From: a virus
Direction: 5' to 3' (one strand)
Virus record (IMG/VR): IMGVR_UViG_3300020408_000052
Location: 1-21,449 of that record
DNA: 21,449 nucleotides
The first letter of the stretch is position 1; each line of letters opens with the position of its first letter. A program made the position numbers and the translations under genes. This document shows positions 1 through 20,960 of the stretch, one piece after another. The notes beneath the pieces were generated by a model. It did not search any database. It saw only the letters and a list, made by a program, of their open reading frames with translations, and was not told the DNA's origin.

Positions 1-80
1 TCACTGGAAGTAGTATCTAATTGACCATCAACTAGATCAACAAGTAAACTACCATCTGTTTTGTTTAATTTATAACTCAT
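1..80 (-). CDS. Phage tail fibre-type protein, 5' end only (runs off the window)
   Basis: Only the first 26 codons are present; the gene continues past base 1. The start ATG (80-78) shares one base with the TAA stop of the upstream 676-residue fibre gene (TAATG). A strong Shine-Dalgarno GGAGG sits six bases upstream, inside the last codons of that gene, so start choice is firm and translation is probably coupled. The visible protein begins MSYKLNKTDGSLLVDLVDGQ and continues LDTTSS. This resembles the N-terminal pattern of the neighbouring 676-residue fibre (MSY start, then a G-x-(L/I)-x-V stretch and a TS pair) and of tail fibre genes I recall from marine T4-like phages. The N-terminus of such fibres is likely the virion-attachment part, so this looks like a second, paralogous fibre. 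The rest of the protein, including the receptor-binding end, cannot be seen. Confidence 0.8.
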   Translation of the reverse strand, partial: MSYKLNKTDGSLLVDLVDGQLDTTSS

Positions 81-2110
81 TAAATGCCTCCAGTATAAAT
101 TATATAATTCAATGTGATGTAAGGATTCATTACATCCATCTGTTGTCCTATTGTGCCACTTATTCCACCTGAATTAGGTAATTGTTGTGCACCTGTTGTA
201 TTTGTTAAATCAGGTCCATCTCTAGTTGTCACTTCATTATCTGTTGACGCACCTGCAATATTTCTTGAAGCAAAGAATTGATCGCCATTGTTTGCTCTCA
301 TGTTGTGTTCGTGATCCGGTAGGTTTTCTTTTGTGATTGTTTTCTTCTCATCACCTGCACCTTGACCTAAATTATCTGCCGCTACCGCAGTAACTCTGTC
401 TGCTGAACCTTGACCTAAACCTGGATTTGCCATATTGTCTTTACCTAGTGGGAATCTGCCTCGTAAATCAGGTAATTTAAATACAGCCGAAGTTGTAGGC
501 GTTCCGTATTGTGTTCCTATTACACCATAAAGTGTGCTGTACACCGCTCTGCTTATTTCTGCACCATCACACATCAACCAGTTAGCAGGAGCAGTGGCAC
601 CTGCAAATAAAGTTATTGAACCTACTGGTGGAGTTGGAATAGTGCTTACAATGTTACCAACAGTAGTTTTAAAAATTCCTGATGTGCCTTGTGTTCTATT
701 GATTATTAATTCATCACTTACTTGACTTGTTGTTGTTAATGTTTGGTTACCAATAAACGAATTGCTTATACTTGTATTAAAAGTTTTAGATGTGCCGCCT
801 GTTTGTCCATCAAAAGTAAAACTTGTTGCTGTAACATCACCAGTCATGTTAAATGTTGTTGCTTGAGTCAATTTATTAGATGAACCTGCTGTACCTGATA
901 CTGTACCACTTACGTTTCCTGTTAGGTTTCCAACAAAAGTATTTGCATAAACATTTCCGTATTGATTATTTGTAGAACCTAGGTTGTGTATGTTATTTGC
1001 AGAAGGTGTAATGTTGTTTGCAGTTAAATTACCTGCAATACTTGTATCATTACCAACAAATAATTTTTTAGCAACACCTAAACCACCCTTAACAACAAGA
1101 GAACCTGAACCAATATTAGTTGCATCAGTTGTATCATTTGCTGTTACTATGCCATCTGCGGACAAAGTGCCTGCAACATCTAGCACAGCAGTTGGATTTG
1201 TTTTCATCACACCAACTTGTCCTGCTGAACTCAATCTCATCACAGTAGTTGTTGTGCCTTGGTTGTTTAATCTGAAATCTATTTCTTCATCTAGTGTGCC
1301 TAATTGGAATATACCTGCTTGTTGTTCAACAAACATTTTAAATGATCCTGCGGCACCTACTTCTATACCATCATCTGTTTTTATTTTAATTGGAAAATCT
1401 GTTAATGAAGTTGTATCTGCTCTTAAAAAATTACCTGCCGCAACTGTTGAACCACTTACAACAAGAGCATCTGCTTTTTCGGCTGTGCCATAAAATTTAC
1501 CAACACCGTCTCCTTTGATATTTGCTATACTTAAATTTATTCCTGGACGCAGTTGTGAAAAACCAGGTATTGTAGATTTTGGAGTGAATGAATCTGTGGC
1601 AATAATTGCCGCTGTTTGAGCCGCAACTTCTAATTTTATAATTGTGTAGTCTAAATCATCAGTTCCTTTGATTGTTGTAGGTGTTGCACCAGTTGTCAAT
1701 CCTGAACTGTATTGTGGGCCTACTAGAATCCAACCTGATCCTGTGAATAGATATAATTGTTGTTGATCTGTATCAACCCATAAATCACCTGTAATACTTT
1801 CTGAAGCACTTGGTTGATTAATGGCTTTTTTAAGTCCGCCTGATGCTACCCATGTTGTACCATCATAAATTTTTAATTGGTTTACACCTGCTGTTGTATC
1901 AAACCAAGTTTGACCTTGTATTGGTCTTAATGGAGCCGTGCTATTAGCAAAATTTTCTAATACGTGTAGAAAATTCTCTGCTATAATTGTACCATATGAT
2001 GTTGTGTTTTTTCCTGGAAACTGTAAACTAGTTTGACTGTTCACTGTGTTGTCTTCGACAGTGATAGTACCTTTGTTTACTGCATCAGAAAAACTTATGG
2101 TATATGACAT
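80..2110 (-). CDS. Tail fibre protein with C-terminal phage tail-collar domain
   Basis: A 676-residue structural protein, probably a host-contacting tail or short-tail fibre. The N-terminus (about residues 1-60) has the marine T4-like fibre pattern (GTITVEDN, then FPGKNTTSYG and AENFLHVLENFAN). Two tandem WFDT/WVDT repeats follow at about 65-89 and 107-130, each ending in a TGSGW- or DGTTW-like turn. The middle (about 200-480) is rich in G, N, T and S with short beta-type repeats such as NLTGNVSGTVSGT, as expected of a trimeric fibre shaft. From about residue 493 comes a tail-collar domain (Pfam PF07484 type): PVGSITLFAGATAP, NWLMCDG, then LPDLRGRFPLG, a LPDHEHN motif near 597, and a closing MNPYITLNYIIYTGG. 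The architecture recalls T4 gp12 and microcystin-dependent-protein-like tail proteins. The start ATG at 2110 has AGGGG six bases upstream, inside the end of the preceding gene, three bases after whose stop it begins. Receptor unknown. Confidence 0.9.
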   Translation of the reverse strand: MSYTISFSDAVNKGTITVEDNTVNSQTSLQFPGKNTTSYGTIIAENFLHVLENFANSTAPLRPIQGQTWFDTTAGVNQLKIYDGTTWVASGGLKKAINQPSASESITGDLWVDTDQQQLYLFTGSGWILVGPQYSSGLTTGATPTTIKGTDDLDYTIIKLEVAAQTAAIIATDSFTPKSTIPGFSQLRPGINLSIANIKGDGVGKFYGTAEKADALVVSGSTVAAGNFLRADTTSLTDFPIKIKTDDGIEVGAAGSFKMFVEQQAGIFQLGTLDEEIDFRLNNQGTTTTVMRLSSAGQVGVMKTNPTAVLDVAGTLSADGIVTANDTTDATNIGSGSLVVKGGLGVAKKLFVGNDTSIAGNLTANNITPSANNIHNLGSTNNQYGNVYANTFVGNLTGNVSGTVSGTAGSSNKLTQATTFNMTGDVTATSFTFDGQTGGTSKTFNTSISNSFIGNQTLTTTSQVSDELIINRTQGTSGIFKTTVGNIVSTIPTPPVGSITLFAGATAPANWLMCDGAEISRAVYSTLYGVIGTQYGTPTTSAVFKLPDLRGRFPLGKDNMANPGLGQGSADRVTAVAADNLGQGAGDEKKTITKENLPDHEHNMRANNGDQFFASRNIAGASTDNEVTTRDGPDLTNTTGAQQLPNSGGISGTIGQQMDVMNPYITLNYIIYTGGI

Positions 2111-2113
2111 CTA

Positions 2114-2725
2114 TTACCCCTCGTTAAAACCTGTCAAACTTTGTACTCTAACAGTGTAATCTATTTGCACTAATCTGTTTAAACTTTTTTGTACAGGATG
2201 AAAAACCACGTGTGTTAAAAGTTTACCTGTGCCACTTGGCGAATAACTAACAAGTCCTAATTCATCAAACACATATAAACTATTTGCCTGCGATGCTTGA
2301 TCAACTGCATCTTGTCCATTTGGCTCACCGTAATCTAAAAGACAAGTAACAAGAACATCTGTATAATTTGTTCCGTTTACGTGTCTAGTTTCTATTTTAT
2401 TTCTCTGAGGATCTAAGTTTGTTACACTTCTATCATCAACTACTTTGCTATATGTTTGATTATACAGACTTGCATTTGTGCCAGTACTGTTAGGAGTCAA
2501 ATATGTAATAATTCCTGTTGGATCAACACTTGTTCCGCCGTTACCAAACGCCATTGAATTAATAAAACCTTGACCTTGATTAGCAACACTCTCCGCTAAA
2601 GCAATACTCATGTTCTCATAGTGAATTGCATTGCGTTTATTGACGAAAACAGCGCCTGATTCAGGGTCATGTATCTTAATATGACCTTGTATTAAAACTC
2701 CGTTGTTTTCATTAAATTTACTCAT
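2114..2725 (-). CDS. Conserved phage virion structural protein, 203 residues
   Basis: I recognise this as a protein conserved next to the baseplate and fibre genes of marine T4-like phages, but its exact role is not known to me. Visible blocks are GHIKIHDPESGAVFVNKRNA (about 14-33), HYENMSIALAESVANQG, a glycine-rich AFGNGGTSVDPTGIITYLTP, then FDELGLVSY and LLTHVVFHPVQKSLNRLVQI near the C-terminus. There is no signal peptide, membrane segment or obvious enzyme motif. Such a small, beta-rich protein between a baseplate gene and a fibre gene could be a connector or fibre-attachment protein; that is inference from position. The start is supported by GGAG five bases upstream of ATG and by a late promoter box 19 bases upstream. 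The gene ends three bases before the tail fibre gene, so the two are probably cotranslated. It could also be a counterpart of one of the small T4 baseplate or pin proteins, but I see no specific motif for that. Confidence 0.82.
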   Translation of the reverse strand: MSKFNENNGVLIQGHIKIHDPESGAVFVNKRNAIHYENMSIALAESVANQGQGFINSMAFGNGGTSVDPTGIITYLTPNSTGTNASLYNQTYSKVVDDRSVTNLDPQRNKIETRHVNGTNYTDVLVTCLLDYGEPNGQDAVDQASQANSLYVFDELGLVSYSPSGTGKLLTHVVFHPVQKSLNRLVQIDYTVRVQSLTGFNEG

Positions 2726-2744
2726 TTATGCTCCAATTTCTATT

Positions 2745-2754
2745 GTATTTATTG
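2745..2754 (-). promoter_or_regulatory. Putative T4-type late promoter box upstream of the 203-residue gene
   Basis: On the minus strand the sequence reads CAATAAATAC. It matches seven of eight positions of the T4 late promoter box TATAAATA (AATAAATA here). The box ends 19 bases before the ATG, so a transcript starting about six bases downstream would have a leader of roughly 15 bases holding the Shine-Dalgarno GGAG. An identical 10-mer lies at almost the same distance from gp6. The last codon (CAA) and stop (TAA) of the giant gene are part of the box. Promoter activity is inferred, not shown. Confidence 0.65.
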
Positions 2755-5700
2755 CGGCGGAGCCACTTCTTTTTGACGTATGAATCTTGCGATGTCATTA
2801 TCCGTCTGACTCAGTGGATCTGTGCCTTCTTGCCAAATTTTACCTTGTTTACGTATCACCACAATTTTGGCATTTGCGGCTGGTGTATTAGTAAATGTAA
2901 TCACAGGATTTACACCATCTACTGTGAATTCTGCTGACACAGTGTCATCTGCTTCAGGACTGTCCTGTCCGTTTGCTGGATTGTACTGTGAAATACTGTT
3001 TTTACGCATTCTCTTACCGCCAACAAATAATTCAAATTGATTAGCATTTGTTGGAGTAAACGAAATAGTTAATTGATTATTTGACACATCTGCTCCTGTG
3101 TACACTTCCGATACAAACTCATCTTTGTAAGGAACTGTCTGGAATCCACTTTGATCATGAACTTCTGTGTCAGCAAAGTGTTGAGTTGGTACTCCTGTGC
3201 CATATGTACCTCTTCTTAATTGTTGTAATTTGTTACCATCCTTGATCCAATATTCAATTCTTTCACCATCTATGAAAACAATGCCAGGTAAACTAGCAGT
3301 GATATTTGGTTCCGTTATTCCTGTTGCGTCTTTCAAAACAATTTCTTTGTCATACCAGTACAATGTATTTGCAAGGAAGTATTGTCTATCATTTCCTATA
3401 CGTTTAAAGTGTGTTCTGTTCATCATATCTTTGAACTGTCTGTATGCAAATTTACCAATGAAACTTGGTGCAGAGAAATGCATGACATCTATTTGATCAT
3501 TTTGACTTACAGTTCTAGAAATCAGCACTCTCATTTGATCATTTGACACAGTGTAGTCCACACTTGGTGCTAGCCATTCTCCGTTCAATGACACCCAAAC
3601 ATATTGAGCATCAACTGCCGGCTTACGTAGATAGATTACACCGTTTGTTAATTGATTGTATTGATAATAATCGTCGCTGTTTACTGTGATTGACAATCTA
3701 GCAATCACATCTGCCTGTTCTCTTTCAATGTCTGCTATGTCATGTTTACTGAACTGATAAGCAGTAACTTTTGTATTCTGTGTTGGTGCATTGGTCAATG
3801 TCAACACACCAGCGTCTGATACACTGTATTGTCCATTGTCTATGAACACATCTAAAATATCACCAACAACACCCACACCTGACTCTAGTGTAACACTAGA
3901 ATTTCCTGGATTCCATCTGTATTGTGAACTTGTCATTTCAACATCATTTAAAAATGCTCTTACGTCAGTTGAATTAATACTGCCCGGTACTATTTGCCAA
4001 TTTTCAATTTCATATTCTCTTAATGCTGAAACTTTAAATTGTTTGTACCAACCACTTCTTAACATATTGTCTCCAACTTTAACAATTACATTAGTTGTCA
4101 AAGGCTGTTGAGCAAAAGGTGTTGGCGATAATTGATAAGTTGCTGTGCTTCCGTCACCAGTGAATTCATTTTGCGTAACTTCACTGAATGATTGACTTGC
4201 ACTTTCATATACACAAATACTAATAACAGCATCTATCGCCGGCGCTGTGTTAAATCTAATTGCTACTCTATTTGGTACAGCAAATGAACTGTCTGTTTCT
4301 AAAACTTGGAATGTTGTTCTTTGACCGTTTACTCTAACAAATACTGAAATTTTGCCTGCTGTGTATTTTGCTCTTGTAACAAAGTCAACTGTTGAACCAT
4401 CACCAGTGAATGTATCTACATCTAAAACAGATTCGCCATTGTTGCCCATAGTAATAAAATTAATTTTATTGCCATTTGCAGGTGCACTGTTGAATATGAT
4501 TTTTTTGTTTTGATAATCAACTGTGAATAAATTGCTGTTGTATAATATGTTGTTTACTGAAACAAATACAGCATCAGCACTTTGCGGATAATCTGTGTAA
4601 GCAAATTCAGTTGTAGTACCATCACCTATATAATTGTAACTGTTAATTTTACTTCCAGTGTTTGAACCTCTATCATAAACTTGTATGTCTAATGTGTCTA
4701 AAACTTGTCCTGGTACAAATTCTTCAGGTCCATGCGATGACGTCGGAGTTACAAATCCATCTCCATCAACATTTATATCCTCAGCACTTAAACCTTGTGC
4801 TGTAGAGTATGCTAAATCACCACCTTGTAAAAGTGTATCAACTTCTTTAGGATCAGGTAAGAAAGAACCATCGCTTGATGATTTTCTTATTATTATTGTG
4901 TCATTGCCCGTTTCAACAGCACTGATATCGACAGTTTTTGTAGAGCCGTCACCAATGATTGTTTCCATTACAGCATTGACATTTGTTTGCTGTGGTGTTC
5001 CAAAATTTGGATCATCAACTCTTACACCATTTCTGTATACATTGTATTGTACATTGGCTTCTAATGTTTTAGAAAGTGTTAATGATAATGTACTTTGATC
5101 CAGATAGAAAACTTCGTCTTCATAACTTTCATCATACGTGTCCCACTCACCATCCATAAACGGTTGGTTGTCCCAGCCTGATTTATTTTCAAATCCTATA
5201 CTACGTACTTCTACTCCACCATAGTCTATACCTTCAATTACCTGTGCAAGTTCCTTGCCTGGCATTCCAGCAGTTGGAGAGTAATATAAATTCACTCTAT
5301 CTTGTGTTTGTAACACATCTTGATCAATCAAATATTCTATAGATATATTTGCGTTGTTTGCCGGAGGTAAAGTGAATGAAACATAACCACAATTTCTTGT
5401 GTACGATTTAGTTTCATCTACATCATTATTAAAAGTGTATTCGCTTCTTAATTTTAATTGATTGTTTACTTTTACTTTGACAGTTGTTGTACGTAAATCC
5501 ATTGGCCATTTCAATTTAAATTTCAATTGACTTGCGTTGCCAGAGAATGTTTCTGTTCTTGTTAAATTAGCAAGTAAAAGATCTCCAGTTGTTCTGTCAA
5601 ATTTTACACCAATGTGCGTTGATCTAACAAGGCTATCACCTAAAACTGCATTGGCTTCAGCAACTGTGCCTGTAGTTGATCCTAAAATGTTTACTGTTGG

Positions 5701-8700
5701 AGCACCAATGTATCCACTACCACCATTTGTTACATTTATTCTGTTTATTGTTCCATTTTTGATATATGCTGTTGCTGTGGCTCCAGAACCTCCGCCCCCA
5801 ACTATTTCTATTGTAGGTGCGTTTTTGTAAAGTGTTCCACCTTGTTTTATATTAATAGACTTGATTGAAAAACCTACATTATCTTTCCAATGTTTGTTTG
5901 GATAAGTGTTTATGTTGTCTGCATTTACTAATGCATTGTTTTCTACCCTAATATTTGAAGGAGTAATTACTCCATTGATATATCTTGGCGGTAAATCAAA
6001 ATCTGTTAAAGAAGTATTAGTAGGTTCAATTTTATCATAAGAACTTACATATTCTCTAATTTTAGATTTGTATGGTTTTATTTCTTTAATGTAATCTTCA
6101 TAGTTGGATAGATTATCATTTTTAAATGTGACTTTTTGTTTCAAGTCGCCTACATTGTGTTGTGCTGTAACAAAACTTGTTTTAAATACCCAATCATTTA
6201 GAGTATCTTCTGATAAAGCATATCTAATACTTGCAAAGAACAATTTGTTGTATTCTAATTTTAATTCTTCAACAAATATGCTGTCCCTTACAGTTTGTAA
6301 AATAATTCTTGTTTCTTCAATAGGCTGTCTATCATAAAGTTGAACGTCAAAACTATTTGAATCAAAACCTATATTTTGATTTGCGTAATCATATAATTTT
6401 GTGTTAAATTGTATTGTTCCATTCTGTCTTCCCACAGTTTTGTAATTTACTGTGTAGTCAACATCCTCTTTATTATCTACTTTTTCTAATAGTAACCAGC
6501 CACCTGTGCCCACAGTTTCAATTTTTACTATGTCGCCTATATCACACTCGATTGCGTCTAATTCATAAGTTTGTGAAACTTTTTTATCAATGGCAGTAAG
6601 TTCACTGTATCCTGTGTCATACCAATCAGCATAGTTCCAATACAATCCAACATTGTAACTTTGTATTCTTGTACGTGTCCAACCCTCTGTTGTGTAAGAG
6701 TATATTGCCCATTTGCCTGTAACAGTGCTGTCTGCATTTACTAAAGCACTGAAATCACGCACAGTGATTGTGTCTATTGACTTGTAATTACTACCTTGTT
6801 CACGTACAACAGCATTTGACACTGAACCATTTACGTCTATTGATAATTCTATTACTGCACCTGATCCTGTTGTTGTGTTTATTGTTATTGTTGGTTTAAA
6901 TTTATAACCTTTACCTGCGTCTGAAACAAATACAGATTTAATTTTTCCGTCTTCAATTGTTGGAACTAGAGTTGCTGTTTTTACTGTACCAACACCAACA
7001 AATTGTAAATCTTTTTCTGTGTCAACTGTAACATCATACAAACCTGTTGCTGTTAAAGGTGCTGGATCAGATTTTGTTAAACTGGATAAGTCTACTTCAT
7101 CTACAATTAAGTTAGAAATTAATGTGCTGTTGATTCTTTCAATTGCTTGTTTCAAAGCCTCTTGTTTGTTTTTGAACCAACTTTGTCTTGGTTGCATCAA
7201 CGTACCATATTTTAATTTTTCACTTAATTCAGGATCTGGAACGTGATTTTCTAATTCATCGTAACCAATTAAACTGTTGAACCAAACAGTTTCAATGTCT
7301 GTTGGGATTTTGCTAGACGCTAAATTTTCAGTTACTATTGCATACTCTTCATGAATATCATTATTTGTGGCTGTGTTAATCAACCTAAAGTTTATTACAG
7401 CATCTTTATCACTTATTAATCCGCCACAGTTTACAATAGCAAATTTATTTGAACCAAATATCGTTACATATTTGTATCCTTGAGATCTTGGATCTTTAAT
7501 TAATTTTGACACGCCATTTGCAGATAAACTTCTTCCTTCAATCTGCGGAATCGATGTTTTATCTTTTACCCAGTAAAAATAAACATTTGTAAACACACCT
7601 GCAACTTGATCATATTGTTTTTTCAACACAAAGTTATTAGTGTTTGAAACTGTGCCTGTTATACCTAAAGATAAACCTTCTGGACTTGCACTTAAAGTAT
7701 TCCACTGAGTAGGCGTGTATTTTGATTGTGTCCATTCATGTATATCTATTGTTGCTCCTGGAAACAATTTATTCCAGTAAGCATTATTGAAAATTATATT
7801 ACTTTGATAAGGATAATAGTATTGTGCTTTGCTTATATCCCACCATAATCTTCCTACCTGGGTGTGGTCCCAATGATTCAAATCATCTTGTTTTGTGGAG
7901 CCTGATTGATTGTAGTATGCTGGATCATATTTTGTTTTGTAGAAAATTTCTTCTTCTGCTGGCCCTGGTATTTTTCCAAAGATCGGATCAATATAATCTA
8001 GATTTGCCAAAACTTTTTTAGTTTTTTTATTGTATAAGAATACACTTTTAATTTTTGTTAAATCAGGTTGTTCTATTCCACCAACAGTTTCATGTACACT
8101 TGTCCAGTTATTTGCATCTTGAGATCTACGGAAGTCAATAGTTGTACCTACTTCTTCATCTATTAATTGTAGATTAGGCATTCCAACATAAACGTGGTTT
8201 ACATTTACTAACAAATTAGAACCAAATTGCTGTATGCTTGTATCTGCATAAGTGAATTTTTCTGCATACAATAATGTGTTATCAAATTTTTCATAAATGT
8301 GAATTGTACCTGTGTCTTGTACAATTTTTGTGAATGACGTCATTTCATTATCGAAACTTGTTGTGCCACTATCAAAAGCAGTGTTAATTGTCATGTCACC
8401 TTTTAAACTTGTTACAGCAAGAATATCTCCACTGAAAGATAAAGCATATCCAAAGTTTTCACTTACTTCTTTAGCAGGACTTGTTAAAGTTTGTGTTAGT
8501 GAATATAGACCTGAATCGTCTGTTGCTTTCTTGTAAACATAAACAGCACCCATATCTATATCAGTAAAGTCTTTTAGAGGAGATCCAACAGCGATTAATT
8601 CACCATCGCCACTGATACTGATATCAGCACCAAAATTAATTGTAGGTCCTGAATCATCTGGTGCAGTGATTGTTTGTTTGTATGTGTAATGATTGTCATG

Positions 8701-11700
8701 CAATCTGTAAACAATTATTTTTTGACTGTCATTTGAATACAATACATTTGCAATAATATTGTTTCCATTTGTGTCAATGTCAAATCTATTTCCAAACTGA
8801 ACCATGCTGTTTTGATCTAGAGTACTATCATTCTCTAATTCAACTCCAGAATCATTTGGAATGTAGCCTAAGAAATCTGTGTGCGTATTCTGTAGTTGCC
8901 AATTTGCTGTGTCAAATGCACCAGCAATCATATTAGTTGTTGCTTTGTACAATTGATTGTTATACACAACTAGTTCACCTGTTTGATAAGCCACTGTGTT
9001 TTCAAATACGCCTCTGTATTGAGGATCAATACCTAACCACCAATTTTTAGTAGCACTGTTTTCTATGAAATAAATTTTGCCTGGTAAATTTGTAGTGCCG
9101 TCACCTTCTGCACCAATGTACGCAACAGTTTCACTGCCCACTGTTCTAATTTTAATCCTAGAACCAAATCTTAATCCAGTGGCGGCGTCAGGTATGCTGT
9201 AACCACCTGCAAAACTAAATTGTCCACTAGTTTCTTTTTTGTACACAAGGAAACAACCTTGGTTAGTGAACGCACTCTGTACACCTTCGCCTATTGGAAT
9301 GTTGTAAACTTGTATCCAATCTCTATTGACACTGCTTGGTGTGTTTGCAGAAACATTAATACCATCCAATGTTTGTTCGTCCCAAGTCCAATATTCAATA
9401 TCTCTTCCAAAGTATTCTGTGATTGTGCCTGAGAAGTTAATTGGTGCTGTGTGTTCAAACACTAATAAATTACCAATTATTCCTGGAGGCATATTGCTAT
9501 CTGTAAATGCTGTTTGTTCAATATTACCTAACAATCTATTTGGTGTACCTACAACTGTGATCGTTCCATTGAAGCCTGCATTGGAACCTTGTACAAATGG
9601 CATACCATTGCCTGATAAATTTTTGATCCATAATCTATATTTTTGCAATCCTGTATATTGAATTGCCGCCACTGTACCTTCTCCACCAAAGCCTGCTGTT
9701 TGTGTGTAAGTAGTATCACATCTGACAACGTCACCAACTGTTGGCACATAGAAGTTTGCGTTATTGTCCGGTTGTGAGTCAACATCAACATAGCCTTCCC
9801 AAACATCATTGATTGTTTTTAATCCGTTGGTGTCAGCATTAGAAATATTCAATCCTGGGAAAGTGTATCTGTTGTTTGACACAGTGTTAAACCAAACATT
9901 GATCTGATCACCTGCCTGTTTGCCTAGTGCATGATAACTTGTTTGAACGTCTGTTCTGATAAAATACTTGTTACTTAACACACTGACTGGCGAACTGTTT
10001 GCCTGCCAACTGTTTGTGCTTTGATCCACATAGTAACTTTGTGAATAAGACAGCATACCGAACTCAGCATTATAAACTGGACCTTGCGGACTGATAGGCA
10101 TCCATGGTATCTCTAATGAGTTATTGAAATGGCTGATTGTTCTTGTTATACCTTGTCTTACAATGTCATATATTACCAAGTGATTAGATGTATCTGCACC
10201 TAAATCTGTTGAAACTGCTGTTGGGAAGTCAACTCTCCACCAGCCGCCTAGGTGATTGTAATCTTCTGTGATCACTCTGTCATAGGCACCTATTTCTAAA
10301 TTTCCAAAATTGATTGAGTCTGAAGTAGAAAATACACCTTGCACATCTTTCAAATAGATAAGAGTTTTTGTTCCAACTTTGTTTACATAAACTACTGTTC
10401 CTTGTGCTGTATCTGTTGTAAGCACATTACCAACCACAGGATCAGTCAATGTTATATCAACTTTAAGAATTTCATCAATTTTTTCAACAATAGGTATTGC
10501 TTGTCCTGTGAATATTTCATTGCTGATTGTTGATACATTAATATTTTCTCCAAACGGTCCTTTTGGATCCTTTTGATAATTGTTTCTGTCTTGGTTATAA
10601 TCTGATGTGAAACTTAAATAATCTAGATATAACTTGTCACCAATTTTTGTGCCGTTGTATTGATCAGCACTTGCTCTTATTAAAAGGTGATTTGTTGTTG
10701 TGCCTGTGTGTACATAATCACCTATTAACATATTAGTGATTGCTGAGCCTGTTGCTTCGTTGTATAAACCCGCGGCATCAAAAGTTGTAAAATCTACTGA
10801 AGGATCTGCACCAATAATTTGATTAGTTGCTCTCCATAATTGTTTTTTGTATTGAACAATATTTCCTGTTGCATAATTTTGTGTGTCAACAAATTGTCCT
10901 TTGTATTCTGTTTTTAGATTGCTGGCATCTGGAGCACCAACTAAAATGTAATCACCTTCTGGGGAAATTTCCATTGCTTGTCCAAATTTACTGTTTGAAC
11001 CAAATAAATCTGTCTGCTGATAGATAGGATCTACAGTTGGTGATTGAATTACTTGTATCAGTCTTAATGTAGCACTTTCAGTTCCTCTACTGAACACATA
11101 AATTTGTCCATCATTTTCATCTGGTTGTCCTACTAATAGTATTGTGTTATTTTTGTTTGCTGATAATACTTGTCCAAAACTTACATCACCTGAATCTGTT
11201 GTTGAACTTACTGTGTCATGCTGTTTGAAAACAAATTTATTGTTTACAATTTTCCATTTACCATCATTACTTTGATCTACCCAGAATTTTTCATCATCTT
11301 TTAATCCTTGATCAACAATTCTTTGATTTATTTCTGCAATATCAGACACACGACTTGTAACAAGTCTTCTTACAAATCCTACTGCTGTTGTAATAGATTG
11401 GAATCCTGTTTTTGGTTCGCACACAATTTGATTTAAAGATACTGAACTACATTTTAACACATAGTCAGAACCATTTGCATTCACAACAAAAATCTCTCCA
11501 ACTGCCATTTCAGCATTGTTTAAAGTGGTAACTGTGATTCCATTAGGACCTGCAACAACACTTGTGATTGTTTGATTAGTATTTGAATATCTAAACACAT
11601 TCCATGAATTGTTGTAGTTTCCTACCCAAACATATTGTCCATCTTTTAATGTTGTTAAAGTTGTGCTTGTCAATAAATCATCATAACTGCCAACTGTAAC

Positions 11701-14700
11701 AGATATGTCAATTGGATTTACTGGTCCTGCAGTTTTGATGTATGTGTTTTTGTCATATTTTATAGGAAAAGGATTGTGTGTGTAATTTTCAGGTTTTAGA
11801 TACACCTCGCCTGATTGTATTCTGTACACTAGATCTGTTTCTGCTCCTGTGCCTGTATCTGTTAATTCGACTGGTTGAGGATTCAATCTTACTTTGGATT
11901 CATCCAGCACATATTCTATCTCGTCGAAAGTATCCGAAGCACCGTATTGTCCTTTACGTATGCCCCACTCTTCATAGAAATCAACGCTTTCTTTGTCCGC
12001 ACTTGCTAAAGCGTCAAACAATTTGCTTAATGCATTTGATGTTCCTTTTTCTCTAATGTAACCTTGATAAAATTTGTATTGAGCAACATCATCATTTATG
12101 ATATTTCTTAAGTACTCTCTTGGTTGATAACCAATCAAGTGTTGTGCCATTCTTTGTTGGTCAGTATCAAAGTTGTCTGTATCTAAATCGTAAAAGTCAG
12201 CAAACTGGTTTGCTTTGTAATCAAAGTTTGCATACAGAGAAGGTTGTGGGCGGTTGTCTAATCTACGCCAGTCTTCTTCATTAAATTTTTCTACTGCTTT
12301 TAATTTACTATTTGCTGTGTAATAAAATTGTTTGTGTTTGACCACATCACTCATAGCATATTTTGTAAATGGTGCCCATTCTTGTATTTTCGCTTCATCA
12401 AATATAAAGCCTGGAGATACTCCACTGCCGTCCCACTCAGTCAAGTATCCTAATACTTTGATTCTATCTTGTTTGTAACCACTTGCAGGATCAAAAATTA
12501 AGTCATTGAAAGTGGTTGTGTTATCTATGACACAAACGTTTTCTTTTTGCACCACAGGAATCTTGCAGAAATATATTCCATTTATAGTGTCTTTGAGCAG
12601 TAATTCAAATACATTTCTATCCCTTGTAACACGCACAAAGTTTTTGTCTAAATTGTTTCCGTCTTCTTTTAACACGCCGTAAGAATAAAAATTATCCAAC
12701 ACATTATCAGTAGTTGCATTTGGAGTTTCTAAGACTAATCTCTCTGCAGATGGACTCAAACTAATCACACTGCCGGCGTCCCAATTTTGTGTAGTCCAGT
12801 ATAAAAATTCACGCACTGACAATTGCCAGTTAGAAACTTTTTCTAAACTCTTTTCAAAATCATTAAATTTAAAACCTTTTGATTTTAGGTATTCTCCATA
12901 TCCTAAAATCACATCAACCACTTCTTGAACAGTTTCGTAGGTTGTGCCATATGCAACTGTTGAAACATCTGTGCTGAATTGTTTTCTTAGTTGTGCAACT
13001 GCTCCTCCTTCGATAGGCAATTCAACAAGTTTTACAAATTTTGATAGGTCGAAAGTGCTTTCTGAAAGGTGTTGTGTCTCTACTGCATAAAATTCATTGG
13101 CATATTTTACATATTGTCCAACATCATATCTTTTGTTTTCTGCCCAATTTACATAAGACGCACTTACTCCACCAACATTGATAGTTGGATCAGCAGTGAT
13201 TGGAATTGGAGCATAATATTTTATTACAGGATTGTTTTTGTCATAACCTTTTACAAGATATCCTGATGTAGTCTTTTCTATTATTAAAGCACTGTAAGTG
13301 ATAAGTTCAACAGCAGAACTTGTATTGTAAATTAATTTGTAATTTTCTTCAGGAACAAAAATATTGGCAGTGTTTGTAGGAGACTTACTGTCTAATACTA
13401 ACTTGAATTTGTCTTTGTTACTGAATCCTCTTATTTTAAATCCTATTTGTGCTTTGATATTTTTAATTTTTGCTTTGTAGTCTGCATAACTATTGACTAG
13501 ATTTACTTCAACAAAATCATAGATGTAGTTTACAAGTCCAGCAGTTAAGACTGTTGTTTTTTCAGATACAGCACTTGGAAATACCAAAGCGGAAGGTTGT
13601 AATCTTAAACCAGTTGAATAAACAATTTGCCCTGCATCATTTCTTTTTACTCTGCTTGTATCCCAACCTATACCAATTACTTTTGCTGGTTGGTGCAGTA
13701 AGAATGCTTTTAATATTGCAAAAGGATAATCCGAACTTCTTCTCCAAGCAGTTTCTACTGGACTGTGATCTCCAAATGCATACTTGGATTTCGTTAAATT
13801 TAAAACTACCTCTCTAGCATATCCACTTTCAAAAGGACTTCTTATTGTGCCTGTGCTTGTAACAGGAATATAAGAAGTTAGATTTGGTCTTTTGTATTTG
13901 TCTAGTACAACTAATTTTTTGTTAGGTTCTCTTACAACGCCTGCTTCCATATCTTTCCATAGCACAAGATTTTCTTTTGTGTACGGAGCCGGACCGTAAG
14001 TTGTTTCCCACCATGTTGGTTTTTCTGTGAAACCTATTATTTCCCATGGAGTGATATTGGGTCTATCTGTGCCAAGTAAATTTTTGTATATGCCTCTCCA
14101 ATGTCCTAATAATTTTTCACCTGTTGGTGACACAGCATTAGAATAATTCCAGGTCAAACTATTTGTATCTTGATGATATGTGTTTGCTGTATAATCTTCA
14201 TTACCAATAAATGTTGCCCATTCATTGTAATTTTGTAACAACACAGTGTTTATTGAATCATGATTAAACAAGTTTGTTCTGCCTGCTTTAGGAATAAAAG
14301 CATTGTAGTCTAACAAATCACTATTGTAAGTCGTCTTAATATTATTGTAAATTCTTTTTTCTAATTCTAGTATTAAATCATCTCTATAATCACCGTATGC
14401 TTTTGTAATACTACCGTCGTGTCCTTGTATAACATCTACAGGAGTGACTAAAGTGGTGTCGCTGTATTTTTGTGGAATATATTTTGGATATAAACCTAAT
14501 TTTGTTGGCGTTGCTGGAATGTGAGATCCGTTTGATGTGTCAAACTCTCTGATAACAATTTCATCATCAAGTGTAAGTGTTTTGGTTACGTTCACAAATC
14601 CATTTGTAAAAACATAATCTTGTCCGTGTAAAAGTTGTTCACCATTGTGGTACACGTTTACTGCTTGAATTGATAAACTGTTTAAATCAAAGTTTGTTGA

Positions 14701-17442
14701 TATTGCATAGAATTGACTGTTTGTGTCTAATACTTTGTGTGTTGTTGATTTAAATGCACCAATACCCAACATATCTGTTTGGAAAAATGCAGATGATTCT
14801 GTGTAATTTTTATTAATTGCCTCTAAAACTTTGTCCACTGCAACATCCACATTGCCATCAAAACCTAAGTTTGTTGCTTTTTCAACAAATGCTCTTTTAA
14901 ATCTTAAGTATGCTTCTTGACTGTATGCAATAGAATTTACTACGTGAATATCTTTTCTTAACAAAGTGTACATTGCAAGACTGAGTGGTCCTGAATGTTG
15001 TAAAAATTTTCTACCAAATTTTGTTGCATTTGGAAAATCTCTTAAATTACTTGCACCTGGAGTAACGCCTTCAATGCCTGTAAGTTCATTTGTGATTGTT
15101 TTAACATGGTCAGTTACTTGTCCAAGAGTAAAAGATGAAATATTATCATTTAGTGTGTTACTTTCTAAATTGTTAGGAAACTCATAGTGTCCATTTGTAT
15201 TTTTAATTGAGGCACTAGATGTTTTAATTACAACCACATCACCCACTGTTAATGCCTGACTGAAATTAATGTAAGCAACTGAATTAATTCTGTTTATTGT
15301 GTAATCTGTAAGTTCTTTTTTAATTTGGTTATTGACAAAAACTTTCACAGTTAAATCATTAAGGTCTCCGCTTTTATCATACACATCAACAGCAAAGTCG
15401 TTTGTTTGTCTTGCAGTTACATCGTATAATCTTTCAACTCTTTGATAACTCTCAGTGTCTGCTTTTTCCCAACCATTTTGTAAACTGTTTGTTGTTCTGT
15501 CAGTGAATTTTTTTAAAAATGCTGTGTCAGTGTTTACAGTTGTTTGTGTGTCGTCACCATATACAAAACTATCATTTACTAGATTAAAATCAAAAGTGAT
15601 ATCACCAATGTTGTTTACATTAAGATATTTTATTGGAAATCCTAATTCAGGATCGTTTGCTCCTACACCCTCTTGGTAACTAAAAACTTTGTTTCCTCTA
15701 AAACTTGAGTTGCTGTAATTTGTAGTATCTGTGTAACTGATTCCAGTTTCATCAAAAAGTTCAAACATTGGCGCTTGATTGACTGTTGTTTTTTCTTGTG
15801 TAAGTTGCCAAGTTGTTCCGTCGAACCAATAAATTTTACCTTGATTTTTTGTACCTTGAGTAACAAGCACCGTTTCATTTTCTAAACTTGTAGCATCTGT
15901 TACTTCAACTAAACTGATTTGTCTTGTTGTCGTATTGTTTTGTGTAAAATCTAAAAATTTAACCTCATAAATTTTGTTTTTCACAAGCGGATCTGTATCT
16001 GCTGTGAACATTACTTTCATTCCATTTGTAAGTTCTACGCCATCTATGTGATATCCTACTGCTCCTTCAACATCGCTCATTGCGTCTGTTGTTACAGTAT
16101 CAATTAAATTTATGTTACCTTTACTTGATGTTCCAAAGTTGTATAATTTTAATCCTGCTTCAAATTCTATAATTGGTCTTCTTGCTCTTAAAGATTGATC
16201 AACATTAGCAATCTGACCATTTGCTTTTGCACTGGCTTCAATGACAGACTTATGAATCCATCTGTTGTGTCTGCTCCAAGGATTTCTGTCTGGAGATGCT
16301 TTGTTAATGACTACATAGTCTTTATTCAGGGCGTAAGATGTCGCTGTGCCAAATCCTACAGTATCAAATTGTGTTGTATCAAATGGCACAGGAGTATTTT
16401 CTGTGTAAGAACTTACAACTTCTAAATTTTGTACATTTATTAATTGTATAGCATCACCTACTCCTTCAACATAATATTCTCCTTCTGCGTATTCAGTTGG
16501 AGTAATTGTGCCTTTGAAATTAATTTTCATTCCATTAGACAATTCTGTGCCGTCGGATAATGTGTAAGATTTTTTACCTATTAATTCTTTTGCAACATCT
16601 AGTTCACTGTTTTCATCTATAGTGTATATTTTTATTAGTCCCCAAGCATTAATGTCATTGTTTGCACCGTAGTATAACTTATCTGGTGCTGTGTCTGAAA
16701 CCGTGAATTCGATGACGCCTTTTTCAACTTTTTGTTGACTAACACCAACATTGTATATAAAGTCATCACTGGAACTTCTTGCAGTCTTAATTGTAAACGG
16801 AAGACCTTGTGCTGATATATCAAACTTGTATGTTTGACCTTTGTATAATGTTAAAGTTGGATTTACAGTTTTGCCATCTGGTGTAAAGATATAAGCATAA
16901 TTGTCGCCTTGATCACTTTTTGTAACCGTGTATGTGCTGACTACTGATCTTTGCTGACCCGTTACTGATACTGTGGATGCTCCGTAAGGTAGCCAAAAAT
17001 ATTCTCTATAATTAACAAATTTGTCCCAATTAATTTTTGGAGACCATGTGTAATATTCCTGTGCATTCAAATTGGAATGATCATCAGCATAGCCGTTTAA
17101 ATTTTTTACTTGATTAATATAGTCAATATAATCTTTGAAAAAATTAACATTACCTAATTCATCTGTCTGTGTGATTGCAGGTTCAAATTGATAATTTTGT
17201 CTATCATCATTGATGTCTTTAACATAGTAATCGTCTGCTTTGTAAGACTGTGTGTTCTTCCTACCATAATACGCAGAAATTTTTTCCAGTGTTCCGCTGG
17301 AAATCATTTGATCTAGTGTGCTGTTTAAAAATTTTTGATTGGCAGAAGTTCTAAAATACTTAGGTAGAAACTCCGCAGATTTTCTTCTGTTAGATTCAGA
17401 CCCTACTGGAACTGGAAATTCTTTCTTGTTGTCGTATGCCAT
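2749..17442 (-). CDS. Giant modular baseplate/tail structural protein, 4897 residues
   Basis: One open frame of 14.7 kb without a break. The N-terminus (RKSAEFLPKYFRTSANQKFL, then LNAQEYYTWSPKINWDKFVN near residues 125-145) and inner blocks resemble a large structural protein I recall from marine T4-like phages. These blocks are PTWWETTYGPAPYTKENLVL near 1140, MAQHLIGYQPREYLRNII near 1760, GRLWWDISKAQYYYPYQ near 3200, PRQSWFKNKQEALKQAIERI near 3425 and FIDGERIEYW...RRGTYGTG near 4730. Between them are four CBM5/12-like aromatic modules (about 1431-1472, 1688-1726, 2180-2222, 2809-2849), seven FG-GAP-like motifs (2089-3072), two glycine-rich GSGY repeat blocks (about 3487-3558 and 3857-3934) and GDGST beta repeats (about 4164-4440). 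No signal peptide, membrane helix or protease motif is seen. The ATG overlaps the gp6 stop (TAATG), with a weak GGA five bases upstream. Position after gp6 matches T4 gene 7 (1032 residues), suggesting a wedge role for part of it; glycan binding is inferred. An exact function cannot be assigned. Confidence 0.88.
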   Translation of the reverse strand: MAYDNKKEFPVPVGSESNRRKSAEFLPKYFRTSANQKFLNSTLDQMISSGTLEKISAYYGRKNTQSYKADDYYVKDINDDRQNYQFEPAITQTDELGNVNFFKDYIDYINQVKNLNGYADDHSNLNAQEYYTWSPKINWDKFVNYREYFWLPYGASTVSVTGQQRSVVSTYTVTKSDQGDNYAYIFTPDGKTVNPTLTLYKGQTYKFDISAQGLPFTIKTARSSSDDFIYNVGVSQQKVEKGVIEFTVSDTAPDKLYYGANNDINAWGLIKIYTIDENSELDVAKELIGKKSYTLSDGTELSNGMKINFKGTITPTEYAEGEYYVEGVGDAIQLINVQNLEVVSSYTENTPVPFDTTQFDTVGFGTATSYALNKDYVVINKASPDRNPWSRHNRWIHKSVIEASAKANGQIANVDQSLRARRPIIEFEAGLKLYNFGTSSKGNINLIDTVTTDAMSDVEGAVGYHIDGVELTNGMKVMFTADTDPLVKNKIYEVKFLDFTQNNTTTRQISLVEVTDATSLENETVLVTQGTKNQGKIYWFDGTTWQLTQEKTTVNQAPMFELFDETGISYTDTTNYSNSSFRGNKVFSYQEGVGANDPELGFPIKYLNVNNIGDITFDFNLVNDSFVYGDDTQTTVNTDTAFLKKFTDRTTNSLQNGWEKADTESYQRVERLYDVTARQTNDFAVDVYDKSGDLNDLTVKVFVNNQIKKELTDYTINRINSVAYINFSQALTVGDVVVIKTSSASIKNTNGHYEFPNNLESNTLNDNISSFTLGQVTDHVKTITNELTGIEGVTPGASNLRDFPNATKFGRKFLQHSGPLSLAMYTLLRKDIHVVNSIAYSQEAYLRFKRAFVEKATNLGFDGNVDVAVDKVLEAINKNYTESSAFFQTDMLGIGAFKSTTHKVLDTNSQFYAISTNFDLNSLSIQAVNVYHNGEQLLHGQDYVFTNGFVNVTKTLTLDDEIVIREFDTSNGSHIPATPTKLGLYPKYIPQKYSDTTLVTPVDVIQGHDGSITKAYGDYRDDLILELEKRIYNNIKTTYNSDLLDYNAFIPKAGRTNLFNHDSINTVLLQNYNEWATFIGNEDYTANTYHQDTNSLTWNYSNAVSPTGEKLLGHWRGIYKNLLGTDRPNITPWEIIGFTEKPTWWETTYGPAPYTKENLVLWKDMEAGVVREPNKKLVVLDKYKRPNLTSYIPVTSTGTIRSPFESGYAREVVLNLTKSKYAFGDHSPVETAWRRSSDYPFAILKAFLLHQPAKVIGIGWDTSRVKRNDAGQIVYSTGLRLQPSALVFPSAVSEKTTVLTAGLVNYIYDFVEVNLVNSYADYKAKIKNIKAQIGFKIRGFSNKDKFKLVLDSKSPTNTANIFVPEENYKLIYNTSSAVELITYSALIIEKTTSGYLVKGYDKNNPVIKYYAPIPITADPTINVGGVSASYVNWAENKRYDVGQYVKYANEFYAVETQHLSESTFDLSKFVKLVELPIEGGAVAQLRKQFSTDVSTVAYGTTYETVQEVVDVILGYGEYLKSKGFKFNDFEKSLEKVSNWQLSVREFLYWTTQNWDAGSVISLSPSAERLVLETPNATTDNVLDNFYSYGVLKEDGNNLDKNFVRVTRDRNVFELLLKDTINGIYFCKIPVVQKENVCVIDNTTTFNDLIFDPASGYKQDRIKVLGYLTEWDGSGVSPGFIFDEAKIQEWAPFTKYAMSDVVKHKQFYYTANSKLKAVEKFNEEDWRRLDNRPQPSLYANFDYKANQFADFYDLDTDNFDTDQQRMAQHLIGYQPREYLRNIINDDVAQYKFYQGYIREKGTSNALSKLFDALASADKESVDFYEEWGIRKGQYGASDTFDEIEYVLDESKVRLNPQPVELTDTGTGAETDLVYRIQSGEVYLKPENYTHNPFPIKYDKNTYIKTAGPVNPIDISVTVGSYDDLLTSTTLTTLKDGQYVWVGNYNNSWNVFRYSNTNQTITSVVAGPNGITVTTLNNAEMAVGEIFVVNANGSDYVLKCSSVSLNQIVCEPKTGFQSITTAVGFVRRLVTSRVSDIAEINQRIVDQGLKDDEKFWVDQSNDGKWKIVNNKFVFKQHDTVSSTTDSGDVSFGQVLSANKNNTILLVGQPDENDGQIYVFSRGTESATLRLIQVIQSPTVDPIYQQTDLFGSNSKFGQAMEISPEGDYILVGAPDASNLKTEYKGQFVDTQNYATGNIVQYKKQLWRATNQIIGADPSVDFTTFDAAGLYNEATGSAITNMLIGDYVHTGTTTNHLLIRASADQYNGTKIGDKLYLDYLSFTSDYNQDRNNYQKDPKGPFGENINVSTISNEIFTGQAIPIVEKIDEILKVDITLTDPVVGNVLTTDTAQGTVVYVNKVGTKTLIYLKDVQGVFSTSDSINFGNLEIGAYDRVITEDYNHLGGWWRVDFPTAVSTDLGADTSNHLVIYDIVRQGITRTISHFNNSLEIPWMPISPQGPVYNAEFGMLSYSQSYYVDQSTNSWQANSSPVSVLSNKYFIRTDVQTSYHALGKQAGDQINVWFNTVSNNRYTFPGLNISNADTNGLKTINDVWEGYVDVDSQPDNNANFYVPTVGDVVRCDTTYTQTAGFGGEGTVAAIQYTGLQKYRLWIKNLSGNGMPFVQGSNAGFNGTITVVGTPNRLLGNIEQTAFTDSNMPPGIIGNLLVFEHTAPINFSGTITEYFGRDIEYWTWDEQTLDGINVSANTPSSVNRDWIQVYNIPIGEGVQSAFTNQGCFLVYKKETSGQFSFAGGYSIPDAATGLRFGSRIKIRTVGSETVAYIGAEGDGTTNLPGKIYFIENSATKNWWLGIDPQYRGVFENTVAYQTGELVVYNNQLYKATTNMIAGAFDTANWQLQNTHTDFLGYIPNDSGVELENDSTLDQNSMVQFGNRFDIDTNGNNIIANVLYSNDSQKIIVYRLHDNHYTYKQTITAPDDSGPTINFGADISISGDGELIAVGSPLKDFTDIDMGAVYVYKKATDDSGLYSLTQTLTSPAKEVSENFGYALSFSGDILAVTSLKGDMTINTAFDSGTTSFDNEMTSFTKIVQDTGTIHIYEKFDNTLLYAEKFTYADTSIQQFGSNLLVNVNHVYVGMPNLQLIDEEVGTTIDFRRSQDANNWTSVHETVGGIEQPDLTKIKSVFLYNKKTKKVLANLDYIDPIFGKIPGPAEEEIFYKTKYDPAYYNQSGSTKQDDLNHWDHTQVGRLWWDISKAQYYYPYQSNIIFNNAYWNKLFPGATIDIHEWTQSKYTPTQWNTLSASPEGLSLGITGTVSNTNNFVLKKQYDQVAGVFTNVYFYWVKDKTSIPQIEGRSLSANGVSKLIKDPRSQGYKYVTIFGSNKFAIVNCGGLISDKDAVINFRLINTATNNDIHEEYAIVTENLASSKIPTDIETVWFNSLIGYDELENHVPDPELSEKLKYGTLMQPRQSWFKNKQEALKQAIERINSTLISNLIVDEVDLSSLTKSDPAPLTATGLYDVTVDTEKDLQFVGVGTVKTATLVPTIEDGKIKSVFVSDAGKGYKFKPTITINTTTGSGAVIELSIDVNGSVSNAVVREQGSNYKSIDTITVRDFSALVNADSTVTGKWAIYSYTTEGWTRTRIQSYNVGLYWNYADWYDTGYSELTAIDKKVSQTYELDAIECDIGDIVKIETVGTGGWLLLEKVDNKEDVDYTVNYKTVGRQNGTIQFNTKLYDYANQNIGFDSNSFDVQLYDRQPIEETRIILQTVRDSIFVEELKLEYNKLFFASIRYALSEDTLNDWVFKTSFVTAQHNVGDLKQKVTFKNDNLSNYEDYIKEIKPYKSKIREYVSSYDKIEPTNTSLTDFDLPPRYINGVITPSNIRVENNALVNADNINTYPNKHWKDNVGFSIKSINIKQGGTLYKNAPTIEIVGGGGSGATATAYIKNGTINRINVTNGGSGYIGAPTVNILGSTTGTVAEANAVLGDSLVRSTHIGVKFDRTTGDLLLANLTRTETFSGNASQLKFKLKWPMDLRTTTVKVKVNNQLKLRSEYTFNNDVDETKSYTRNCGYVSFTLPPANNANISIEYLIDQDVLQTQDRVNLYYSPTAGMPGKELAQVIEGIDYGGVEVRSIGFENKSGWDNQPFMDGEWDTYDESYEDEVFYLDQSTLSLTLSKTLEANVQYNVYRNGVRVDDPNFGTPQQTNVNAVMETIIGDGSTKTVDISAVETGNDTIIIRKSSSDGSFLPDPKEVDTLLQGGDLAYSTAQGLSAEDINVDGDGFVTPTSSHGPEEFVPGQVLDTLDIQVYDRGSNTGSKINSYNYIGDGTTTEFAYTDYPQSADAVFVSVNNILYNSNLFTVDYQNKKIIFNSAPANGNKINFITMGNNGESVLDVDTFTGDGSTVDFVTRAKYTAGKISVFVRVNGQRTTFQVLETDSSFAVPNRVAIRFNTAPAIDAVISICVYESASQSFSEVTQNEFTGDGSTATYQLSPTPFAQQPLTTNVIVKVGDNMLRSGWYKQFKVSALREYEIENWQIVPGSINSTDVRAFLNDVEMTSSQYRWNPGNSSVTLESGVGVVGDILDVFIDNGQYSVSDAGVLTLTNAPTQNTKVTAYQFSKHDIADIEREQADVIARLSITVNSDDYYQYNQLTNGVIYLRKPAVDAQYVWVSLNGEWLAPSVDYTVSNDQMRVLISRTVSQNDQIDVMHFSAPSFIGKFAYRQFKDMMNRTHFKRIGNDRQYFLANTLYWYDKEIVLKDATGITEPNITASLPGIVFIDGERIEYWIKDGNKLQQLRRGTYGTGVPTQHFADTEVHDQSGFQTVPYKDEFVSEVYTGADVSNNQLTISFTPTNANQFELFVGGKRMRKNSISQYNPANGQDSPEADDTVSAEFTVDGVNPVITFTNTPAANAKIVVIRKQGKIWQEGTDPLSQTDNDIARFIRQKEVAPPQ
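3910..4980 (-). repeat. GDGST beta repeats near the C-terminus of the giant protein
   Basis: Four copies of a GDG(S/T)T motif stand at about residues 4164, 4272, 4347 and 4431. The last three are FTGDGST or YIGDGTT followed by an alternating hydrophobic strand, and two of them are followed by strands such as VFVSVNNILYN and VFVRVNGQRTTF. This is the pattern of tandem beta-sandwich repeats common in phage fibre and baseplate proteins. The copies diverge at protein level; on the DNA two share only the short stretch tcaccagtgaat. The number of repeats is a minimum from reading by eye. Confidence 0.6.
5640..6985 (-). repeat. Two glycine-rich GSGY repeat blocks in the giant protein
   Basis: Two related blocks lie at about residues 3487-3558 and 3857-3934. 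Each contains a pair of half-repeats with the pattern V-x-x-x-G-x-G-Y-x-x-x-P-T-(I/V)-x-I followed by a GSGA or GGSGA turn. Examples are VSDAGKGYKFKPTITI, GGGGSGATATAY and VTNGGSGYIGAPTVNI. Repeats of this look are frequent in marine phage structural proteins and are likely beta-structured. The two blocks are separated by about 300 residues of unrelated sequence. Confidence 0.65.
8170..11190 (-). repeat. Seven FG-GAP-like propeller motifs, split into 2 + 5
   Basis: Motifs of the integrin-alpha FG-GAP type appear in the giant protein near residues 2089 (VSFGQVLSANKN), 2153 (KFGQAMEISPEGDYILVGAP), 2758 (LRFGSRIKI, then VAYIGAEGDG), 2883 (VQFGNRFDIDTNGN), 2937 (INFGADISISGDGELIAVGS), 2996 (ENFGYALSFSGDILAV) and 3072 (QQFGSNLLVNVNHVYVGMP). 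Several are followed by a strand ending in YVF or YVY. Spacing of 54-76 residues fits propeller blades, except for a gap of about 605 residues after the second and 125 after the third. Seven motifs is the usual blade number for FG-GAP propellers. The assignment is by eye. Confidence 0.65.
8890..13150 (-). repeat. Four CBM5/12-like aromatic modules in the giant protein
   Basis: Four segments of about 40 residues share a pattern: aromatic start, Y-x-x-G-x-x-V-x-(Y/H), an aromatic pair with A, and an F-x-x-x-x-W/F end. They begin near residue 1431 (VNWAENKRYDVGQYVKYANE), 1688 (IQEWAPFTKYAMSDVVKHKQ), 2180 (FVDTQNYATGNIVQYKKQLW) and 2809 (YQTGELVVYNNQLYKATTNM). This resembles the small chitin/cellulose-binding domains CBM5/12 (ChtBD3). 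Copies three and four lie directly after the second and third FG-GAP motifs. Sugar binding is inferred from the pattern only. Confidence 0.55.
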
Positions 17443-20930: not shown

Positions 20931-20950
20931 GATGTCCTTTTGTAATATCA

Positions 20951-20960
20951 GTATTTATTG
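20951..20960 (-). promoter_or_regulatory. Putative T4-type late promoter box upstream of gp6
   Basis: The minus strand reads CAATAAATAC, identical over ten bases to the box before the 203-residue gene and differing at one position from the T4 late box TATAAATA. It lies in the 49-base gap between gp25 and gp6 and ends 20 bases before the gp6 ATG, leaving room for a short leader with the Shine-Dalgarno AAAGGA. In T4-like phages such boxes are read by RNA polymerase with the phage sigma-like gp55 and the clamp-linked coactivator gp33. Activity here is inferred. Confidence 0.65.

Follow-up and report, generated by a model that had tools for sequence, protein, structure and literature searches.

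The window, i.e. the whole stretch of 21,449 nucleotides analysed here (a 21.4-kb metagenomic virus record from IMG/VR, a genome fragment of a marine jumbo phage), is A+T-rich (about 66%) and consists of a single block of minus-strand genes. A gp25-like baseplate wedge gene is followed by a gp6-like wedge gene, a giant ORF sharing one base with the latter, a gene for a 203-aa protein and a tail collar/fibre gene (Table 1). Where ORFs were called by script, as the longest frames with a simple choice of start, the calls are crude. A search with the 203-aa protein matched 60 phage records; almost all come from jumbo phages (RaK2, 121Q, CBB, Atu_ph07, Phosso and others), and identity is below 60% in every case. 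Sinorhizobium phage Phosso exhibits the same gene order as the window, and Agrobacterium phage Atu_ph07 shows it, too, with two small genes inserted. The positional counterpart of the giant ORF is annotated as virion structural protein in both of these phages, and the homologue of the 203-aa protein as structural protein in CBB and in Salmonella phage 7t3. Neither Rfam nor tRNA scanning gave a match in the window, and Rfam found none at the corresponding Atu_ph07 junction either.

Table 1. Genes and candidate transcription signals of the window.
Feature	Position	Strand	Basis
Candidate late-promoter box at the junction, core ATAAATA; extended form CAATAAATAC at 2745-2754	2746..2752	minus	sequence
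End of the giant gene, with CAA (2754-2752) as last codon and TAA (2751-2749) as stop, common to the box	2749..2754	minus	sequence
Predicted 5' leader: +1 = G2740, Shine-Dalgarno GGAG at 2734-2731, ATG from 2725	2726..2740	minus	T4 geometry and sequence
Second candidate box (CAATAAATAC as well), located 21 bp ahead of the gp6-like gene, with +1 predicted near 20946	20952..20958	minus	sequence
Giant virion-structural-like ORF, 4,897 aa, upstream of the junction box	2749..17442	minus	ORF list
203-aa gene (phrog_11259), first downstream of the junction box	2114..2725	minus	ORF list and family match
Tail collar/fibre protein, 676 aa, second downstream of the junction box	80..2110	minus	Pfam Collar
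Baseplate wedge (gp6-like), 1,162 aa, first downstream of the second box	17442..20930	minus	ORF list and family match
Baseplate wedge (gp25-like), 146 aa	20980..21420	minus	ORF list and family match

The initial annotation had described a late promoter box built from the last codon and the stop of the giant gene. This description holds, as CAATAAATAC on the minus strand contains both the CAA and the TAA with which the 4,897-aa ORF ends. The window has just two copies of the heptamer ATAAATA, at 2752-2746 and 20958-20952; both are in minus-strand orientation and inside CAATAAATAC, 20 and 21 bp ahead of a minus-strand ATG. Shuffled sequences let 9.91 +/- 3.34 copies be expected, so that ATAAATA is, if anything, avoided in the window. 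If placed at random, both sites would fall 4-35 nt before one of the five starts with P = 1.4e-5. Reversed sequences did not serve as controls here, because ATAAATA is identical when read backwards and the other reversed control retains the core.

The exact T4-type core ATAAATA is present at the predicted positions -12 to -6 of the junction, and the base at -13 is A instead of the T of T4-type boxes. The T4 late box is given as spanning -13 to -6 in passages of two papers (PMC1524935, PMC2988020); the same passages report A at -13 in 9 of 50 T4 sites (PMC2988020) and a poor conservation of this position in other T4-like phages (PMC1524935). T at -13 is a tolerated rather than a defining position. 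The box is followed by CAATAGAAATT, i.e. by AT-rich DNA just downstream. A transcription start near base 2740, as proposed in the initial annotation, agrees with T4 geometry, which would place +1 on G2740 and leave a leader of 15 nt. The further proposal that the box serves fibre genes applies in part: a virion gene, the collar/fibre gene, does lie downstream, but it is the second one, after the 203-aa gene of unknown function. Scanning of the region 1900-3500 revealed no sigma-70 site at the junction on the minus strand and no intrinsic terminator at the junction; the sole terminator-like site of this region (1 found, 0.5 expected) lies within the giant gene at 3298-3282.

For the analysis of conservation, loci with relatives of the 203-aa gene were taken from IMG/VR, namely the 80 best ones out of at least 599 and hence closer relatives. 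Upstream DNA is included in 78 of these loci (L067 offers only 11 nt of it, and the L019 sequence begins within the gene), and adding the window gives 79 sequences and 65 distinct junctions. After the box had been found in every usable locus, the junctions were anchored on it for column counts. The tree on which changes were counted by parsimony has a length of 9.9 substitutions per site and was derived solely from the 203-aa gene; because the loci share kinship, their counts are not independent, for which the parsimony counts correct in part. The comparison over the codon third position, which the initial annotation had suggested as a check, found the box invariant there and over the stop, with ATAAATA present and its TAA serving as stop of the upstream gene in 78/78 usable relatives as well as in the window. 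Each of the seven box columns shows 0 changes among the 65 junctions. The other third codon positions in the last eight codons have undergone 7-20 changes, the columns 8 to 15 bases past the start of the stop 8-17, and the two columns immediately after the box 4 and 5. The distance from the box to the ATG changed 24 times on the tree and amounts to 16-22 nt, once to 30 nt.

The last codon is AAA in 24, CGA in 20, CAA in 17 and GAA in 4 of the 65 junctions, with A as third base in all of them. It changes 4 times on the tree and its third base not once, so that few independent events underlie the constancy of the third base; where the preceding codons specify one of the same four amino acids, A occupies their third position in a fraction of 0.54-0.77. 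Positions 1 and 2 of the Pro codon ahead of the last codon show 0 changes as well, as coding would explain. Alternatively it might be that the conservation is a coincidence, or is driven by the protein, in an A+T-rich sequence that encodes a conserved L-P-x-stop tail; Leu-Pro before the last residue is indeed nearly invariant. However, the last residue varies, yet position 3 of its codon and the three bases after the stop stay constant. Furthermore, ATAAATA falls below expectation in the window, and only 0.005 copies per 45 nt are expected in the relatives. We regard this explanation as extremely improbable.

The next junction of the cluster was inspected, too: in 0 of the 80 loci does the box occur at up to 60 nt from where the 203-aa gene ends. 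At the far end of the window (78-82, minus strand) the stop of the collar/fibre gene overlaps the next ATG as TAATG with no box, which makes this a junction without a late promoter of its own.

Beyond these closer relatives, 17 distinct isolates were chosen among the 60 matching phage records, and 16 of them carry the exact box ahead of the cluster with the 203-aa gene. The lone exception is Salicola phage SCTP-2 (35% identity), which keeps the gene order and has no exact ATAAATA. A loss of the box under a kept gene order, named in the initial annotation as evidence against a promoter, was thus found in this distant phage only and in none of the 78 usable relatives. In Phosso and Atu_ph07 the giant gene keeps its frame but closes one codon sooner (TAATAAATA), so that the final base of its stop is also the first of the box. 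The ten phages of the RaK2 group do not have the giant gene next to the cluster, and their box precedes the gene leading the cluster; in GAP32 it precedes an ATG lying upstream of the annotated start. Except in Hallingskeid, the gene annotated on the upstream side of the box lies on the opposite strand in these phages (9/10).

These arrangements bear on the possibility that the conserved element acts in the RNA, where AUAAAUA over the stop could take part in termination-reinitiation, ribosome standby or mRNA cleavage with no new transcript being made. AU-rich RNA can act as a standby or cleavage site, and the location at a gene junction with an overlapped stop would suit such a role. Its distance to the next ATG, however, varies from 16 to 30 nt among the relatives, and the box stays in Phosso and Atu_ph07 though the giant gene ends one codon earlier. 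Moreover, a Shine-Dalgarno-like word of their own follows the box in 71 of 88 leadered genes, and no terminating ribosome arrives at the box in the nine RaK2-group phages with the upstream gene on the other strand. A role at the RNA level is therefore very improbable in our view.

A comparable preference of ATAAATA for gene starts was observed in five contigs of relatives (G001, G002, G004, G006 and G007; 948,534 bases), where its 215 copies make it the least frequent among 21 7-mers of equal composition. Of these copies, 83 are located 8-35 nt before a start (103 if 4-35 nt are considered). The 20 other 7-mers, all of them commoner, reach 11-36 each, the two highest being those able to overlap ATAAATA. 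The base at -13 of the 83 boxes is G in 38, A in 25, C in 10 and T in 10 cases. Among the boxes with an ATG 4-40 nt on (n=129), 31 overlap the stop of the upstream open frame, 23 of them with their own TAA; 18 pooled control 7-mers gave 63/1,276, an imperfect control since not every permutation contains TAA. The corresponding values are 4/26 for a T4 stretch (controls 6/300), 4/27 for CBB (40/530) and 5/37 for Atu_ph07 (30/592). The 31 cases indicate that overlap with a stop is a common habit of this clade, of which the junction in the window is one case.

ATAAATA also resembles a -10 element, and the promoter might be read by the host sigma-70, or by another sigma, instead of a gp55-like factor. 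Apart from the lack of a sigma-70-like site at the junction, the 88 leadered boxes show no -35 signal: only the positions -6 and -1 before the box exceed 0.18 bits, with a maximum of 0.34. A gp55-like late sigma (phrog_12791 and phrog_234) was detected in 17/17 related records, with a stop inside the phrog_12791 match of G008, and we give recognition by another sigma little chance. The family phrog_12791 is a longer one of 286 positions, to positions 141-248 of which residues 17-115 of T4 gp55 align. A clamp of the gp45 type (phrog_223) was found in one of the 17 records as a weak match (E 1e-5). PF02916 matched none of them, but it gave no match anywhere in this search, controls included; the bacterial beta clamp PF02767 was missing from all 17 while its controls matched. 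Since no clamp of the gp45 type appeared beyond the one weak match, these phages may not use T4 late transcription in its activated form. For CBB, the passages available of its description report a gp55-like sigma and no detected homologue of gp33 or gp45 (PMC5259590). The Atu_ph07 paper names a homologue of the late-transcription sigma, the word 'promoter' being absent from its main text (PMC6102473).

Judged from the sequence, the junction box is very probably a T4-type late promoter that is read by a gp55-like sigma and gives rise to RNA from near base 2740. Comparison supports this promoter reading strongly: the late promoter postulated in the initial annotation fits the conserved box, its position before the cluster and the sigma present in the relatives. 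Initiation at 2740 and the late timing are predicted. The phage gp55-like sigma, bound to the host RNA polymerase, would recognise (A)ATAAATA at -13 to -6, the AT-rich DNA beyond the box would open, and the RNA would begin near base 2740. Its leader would offer the GGAG ribosome site, and the transcript would cover the 203-aa gene and the collar/fibre gene. As the TAA of the box doubles as the stop of the giant gene, no spacer would remain between the two transcription units. The giant gene itself would be transcribed from the second box with a start near 20946, about 18 kb earlier.

That a separate transcript uncouples the dosage of the fibre, as the initial annotation had put it, we infer from this arrangement; it is plausible that fibre output is freed from the ~18-kb transcript of the second box. 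Two observations lend indirect support to a separate cluster transcript. One is the box that the cluster possesses away from the giant gene in the ten RaK2-group phages. The other is a strong hairpin of 10 bp with a T-run in Vibrio phage 2.275.O, which separates the giant gene from the box preceding the 203-aa gene (L169:1427-1450; detected by folding, z -4.4, and missed by a pattern-based terminator scanner). Because no terminator was found at the junction of the window, read-through is to be expected there.

The second box is kept in 69 of 80 sequences (the window and 79 loci, without L125, whose match starts inside the gene). Seven of the 11 sequences lacking it have another short frame directly ahead of the gene, and four have a changed site, CTAAATA or GTAAATA (L130-L132 and L143). 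By eye, a recurring stretch like TACGTAGTTAA or TACGCACTT is visible in many relatives (L083-L162) between the stop of the gp25-like gene and the box of the gp6-like gene. A general upstream element at the boxes was considered as well and dropped, as the column scan of the 88 boxes shows none.

A further class of boxes became apparent from their distance to the start codon. In the five contigs, an ATG opening at least 60 codons stands exactly 5 nt past the box in 21/215 cases, compared with 3 cases at a distance of 4 nt and 2 at one of 6 nt (e.g. L217:17343-17357 and L221:6932-6946 for the 5-nt spacing); controls with the same filter gave 31/10,939. With this filter the 5-nt spacing was found neither in CBB (54 boxes) nor in Atu_ph07 (96 boxes, 400 kb) or T4 (56 boxes, 140 kb). 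Without the open-frame filter the contrast is weaker, namely 29 versus 12 in backwards controls (G001-G008) and 29 versus 18 in nine named phages. As this unfiltered pattern is less telling, the class rests on the filtered count and on the loci of families. The 5-nt spacing is present in 79/80 loci of the family phrog_13986 (30/31 distinct upstream sequences) and in 73/75 loci of the virion family phrog_13484 (23/24 distinct upstream sequences), the latter count omitting 4 of 79 loci whose match lacks the gene start. The virion family phrog_11591 has a spacing of 8 nt in 78/80 loci, and none of 19 distinct upstream sequences contains a Shine-Dalgarno-like word.

T4 geometry places +1 on the A of the ATG at a distance of 5 nt, so the peak of ATGs at this position fits the predicted start. 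Shine-Dalgarno-like words occur within 20 nt in 14/31 distinct upstream sequences of phrog_13986 and in 7/24 of phrog_13484, which counts against a purely leaderless reading. On balance we lean slightly towards the view that this marine clade packs its late promoters into gene borders, so that one stretch would end a gene and form a promoter and, in one class, the start codon would be the first base of the RNA, yielding leaderless virion mRNAs. Phage mRNAs lacking a leader are in themselves nothing new; a passage of the AR9 paper calls phage transcripts often leaderless (PMC5312081). The class with 5-nt spacing would make leaderless late translation directly testable.

The late promoters of T4 (TATAAATA, read by gp55) share the core ATAAATA and stand ahead of virion genes, too. 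T4 also uses the TAA of a box as stop of the upstream gene, between genes 17 and 18 (box 98501), 21 and 22 (104083) and segF and soc (15609), each 27-29 nt before the next ATG when compared with the annotation. As T4 exhibits the identical overlap, the arrangement at the junction is not new; no remark on a stop overlap was found in the literature passages searched (PMC2984593, PMC5259590, PMC2988020, PMC6102473, PMC5312081, PMC9004378, PMC1524935, PMC7892883). The junction differs from T4 by the A in place of T at -13, the sigma of the longer family phrog_12791 and the lack of a clearly recognisable gp45 clamp in the related records. A late-promoter motif with the same ATAAATA is described for the related RaK2-like jumbo phages CBB and GAP32; in the passages available, it is predicted at 35 sites of CBB and derived from upstream regions of structural genes (PMC5259590). 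Unlike in the window, the giant gene of CBB is not beside the cluster of the 203-aa gene, and the box lies before the gene leading the cluster and not on a stop. Late promoters of the form NATAAATA, with a relaxed first base, are reported upstream of late genes of cyanophages, which are marine T4-like phages as well; these cyanomyoviruses differ in that they are said to carry homologues of g33 and g45 (passages of PMC2984593). Read as a promoter, the junction box belongs to the known late promoters of the T4 type; it is economically placed and not a new kind of element.

These findings support a T4-type late promoter code in marine relatives of the RaK2 and Atu_ph07 phages, drawn from metagenomic phages alone. 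Stop codon, codon third position and promoter would be under joint constraint at such junctions, and the boxes offer a route by which late transcription units can be delimited in the structural regions of jumbo phages even where RNA data are lacking. How late promoters work without gp45 clamp and gp33 may be tested in phages in which neither of the two is recognised but a gp55-like sigma is.

Finally, a gene insertion was noticed in the cluster of Atu_ph07 (L164:19127-20561), where gp178, which resembles GIY-YIG/NUMOD3 homing endonucleases, is located between gp179 and gp177. The former is an ORF of 42 aa resembling the N-terminus of the 203-aa protein, the latter a full-length homologue, and the box remains ahead of gp179, gp178 and gp177. 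PA5oct has a comparable short leading ORF.
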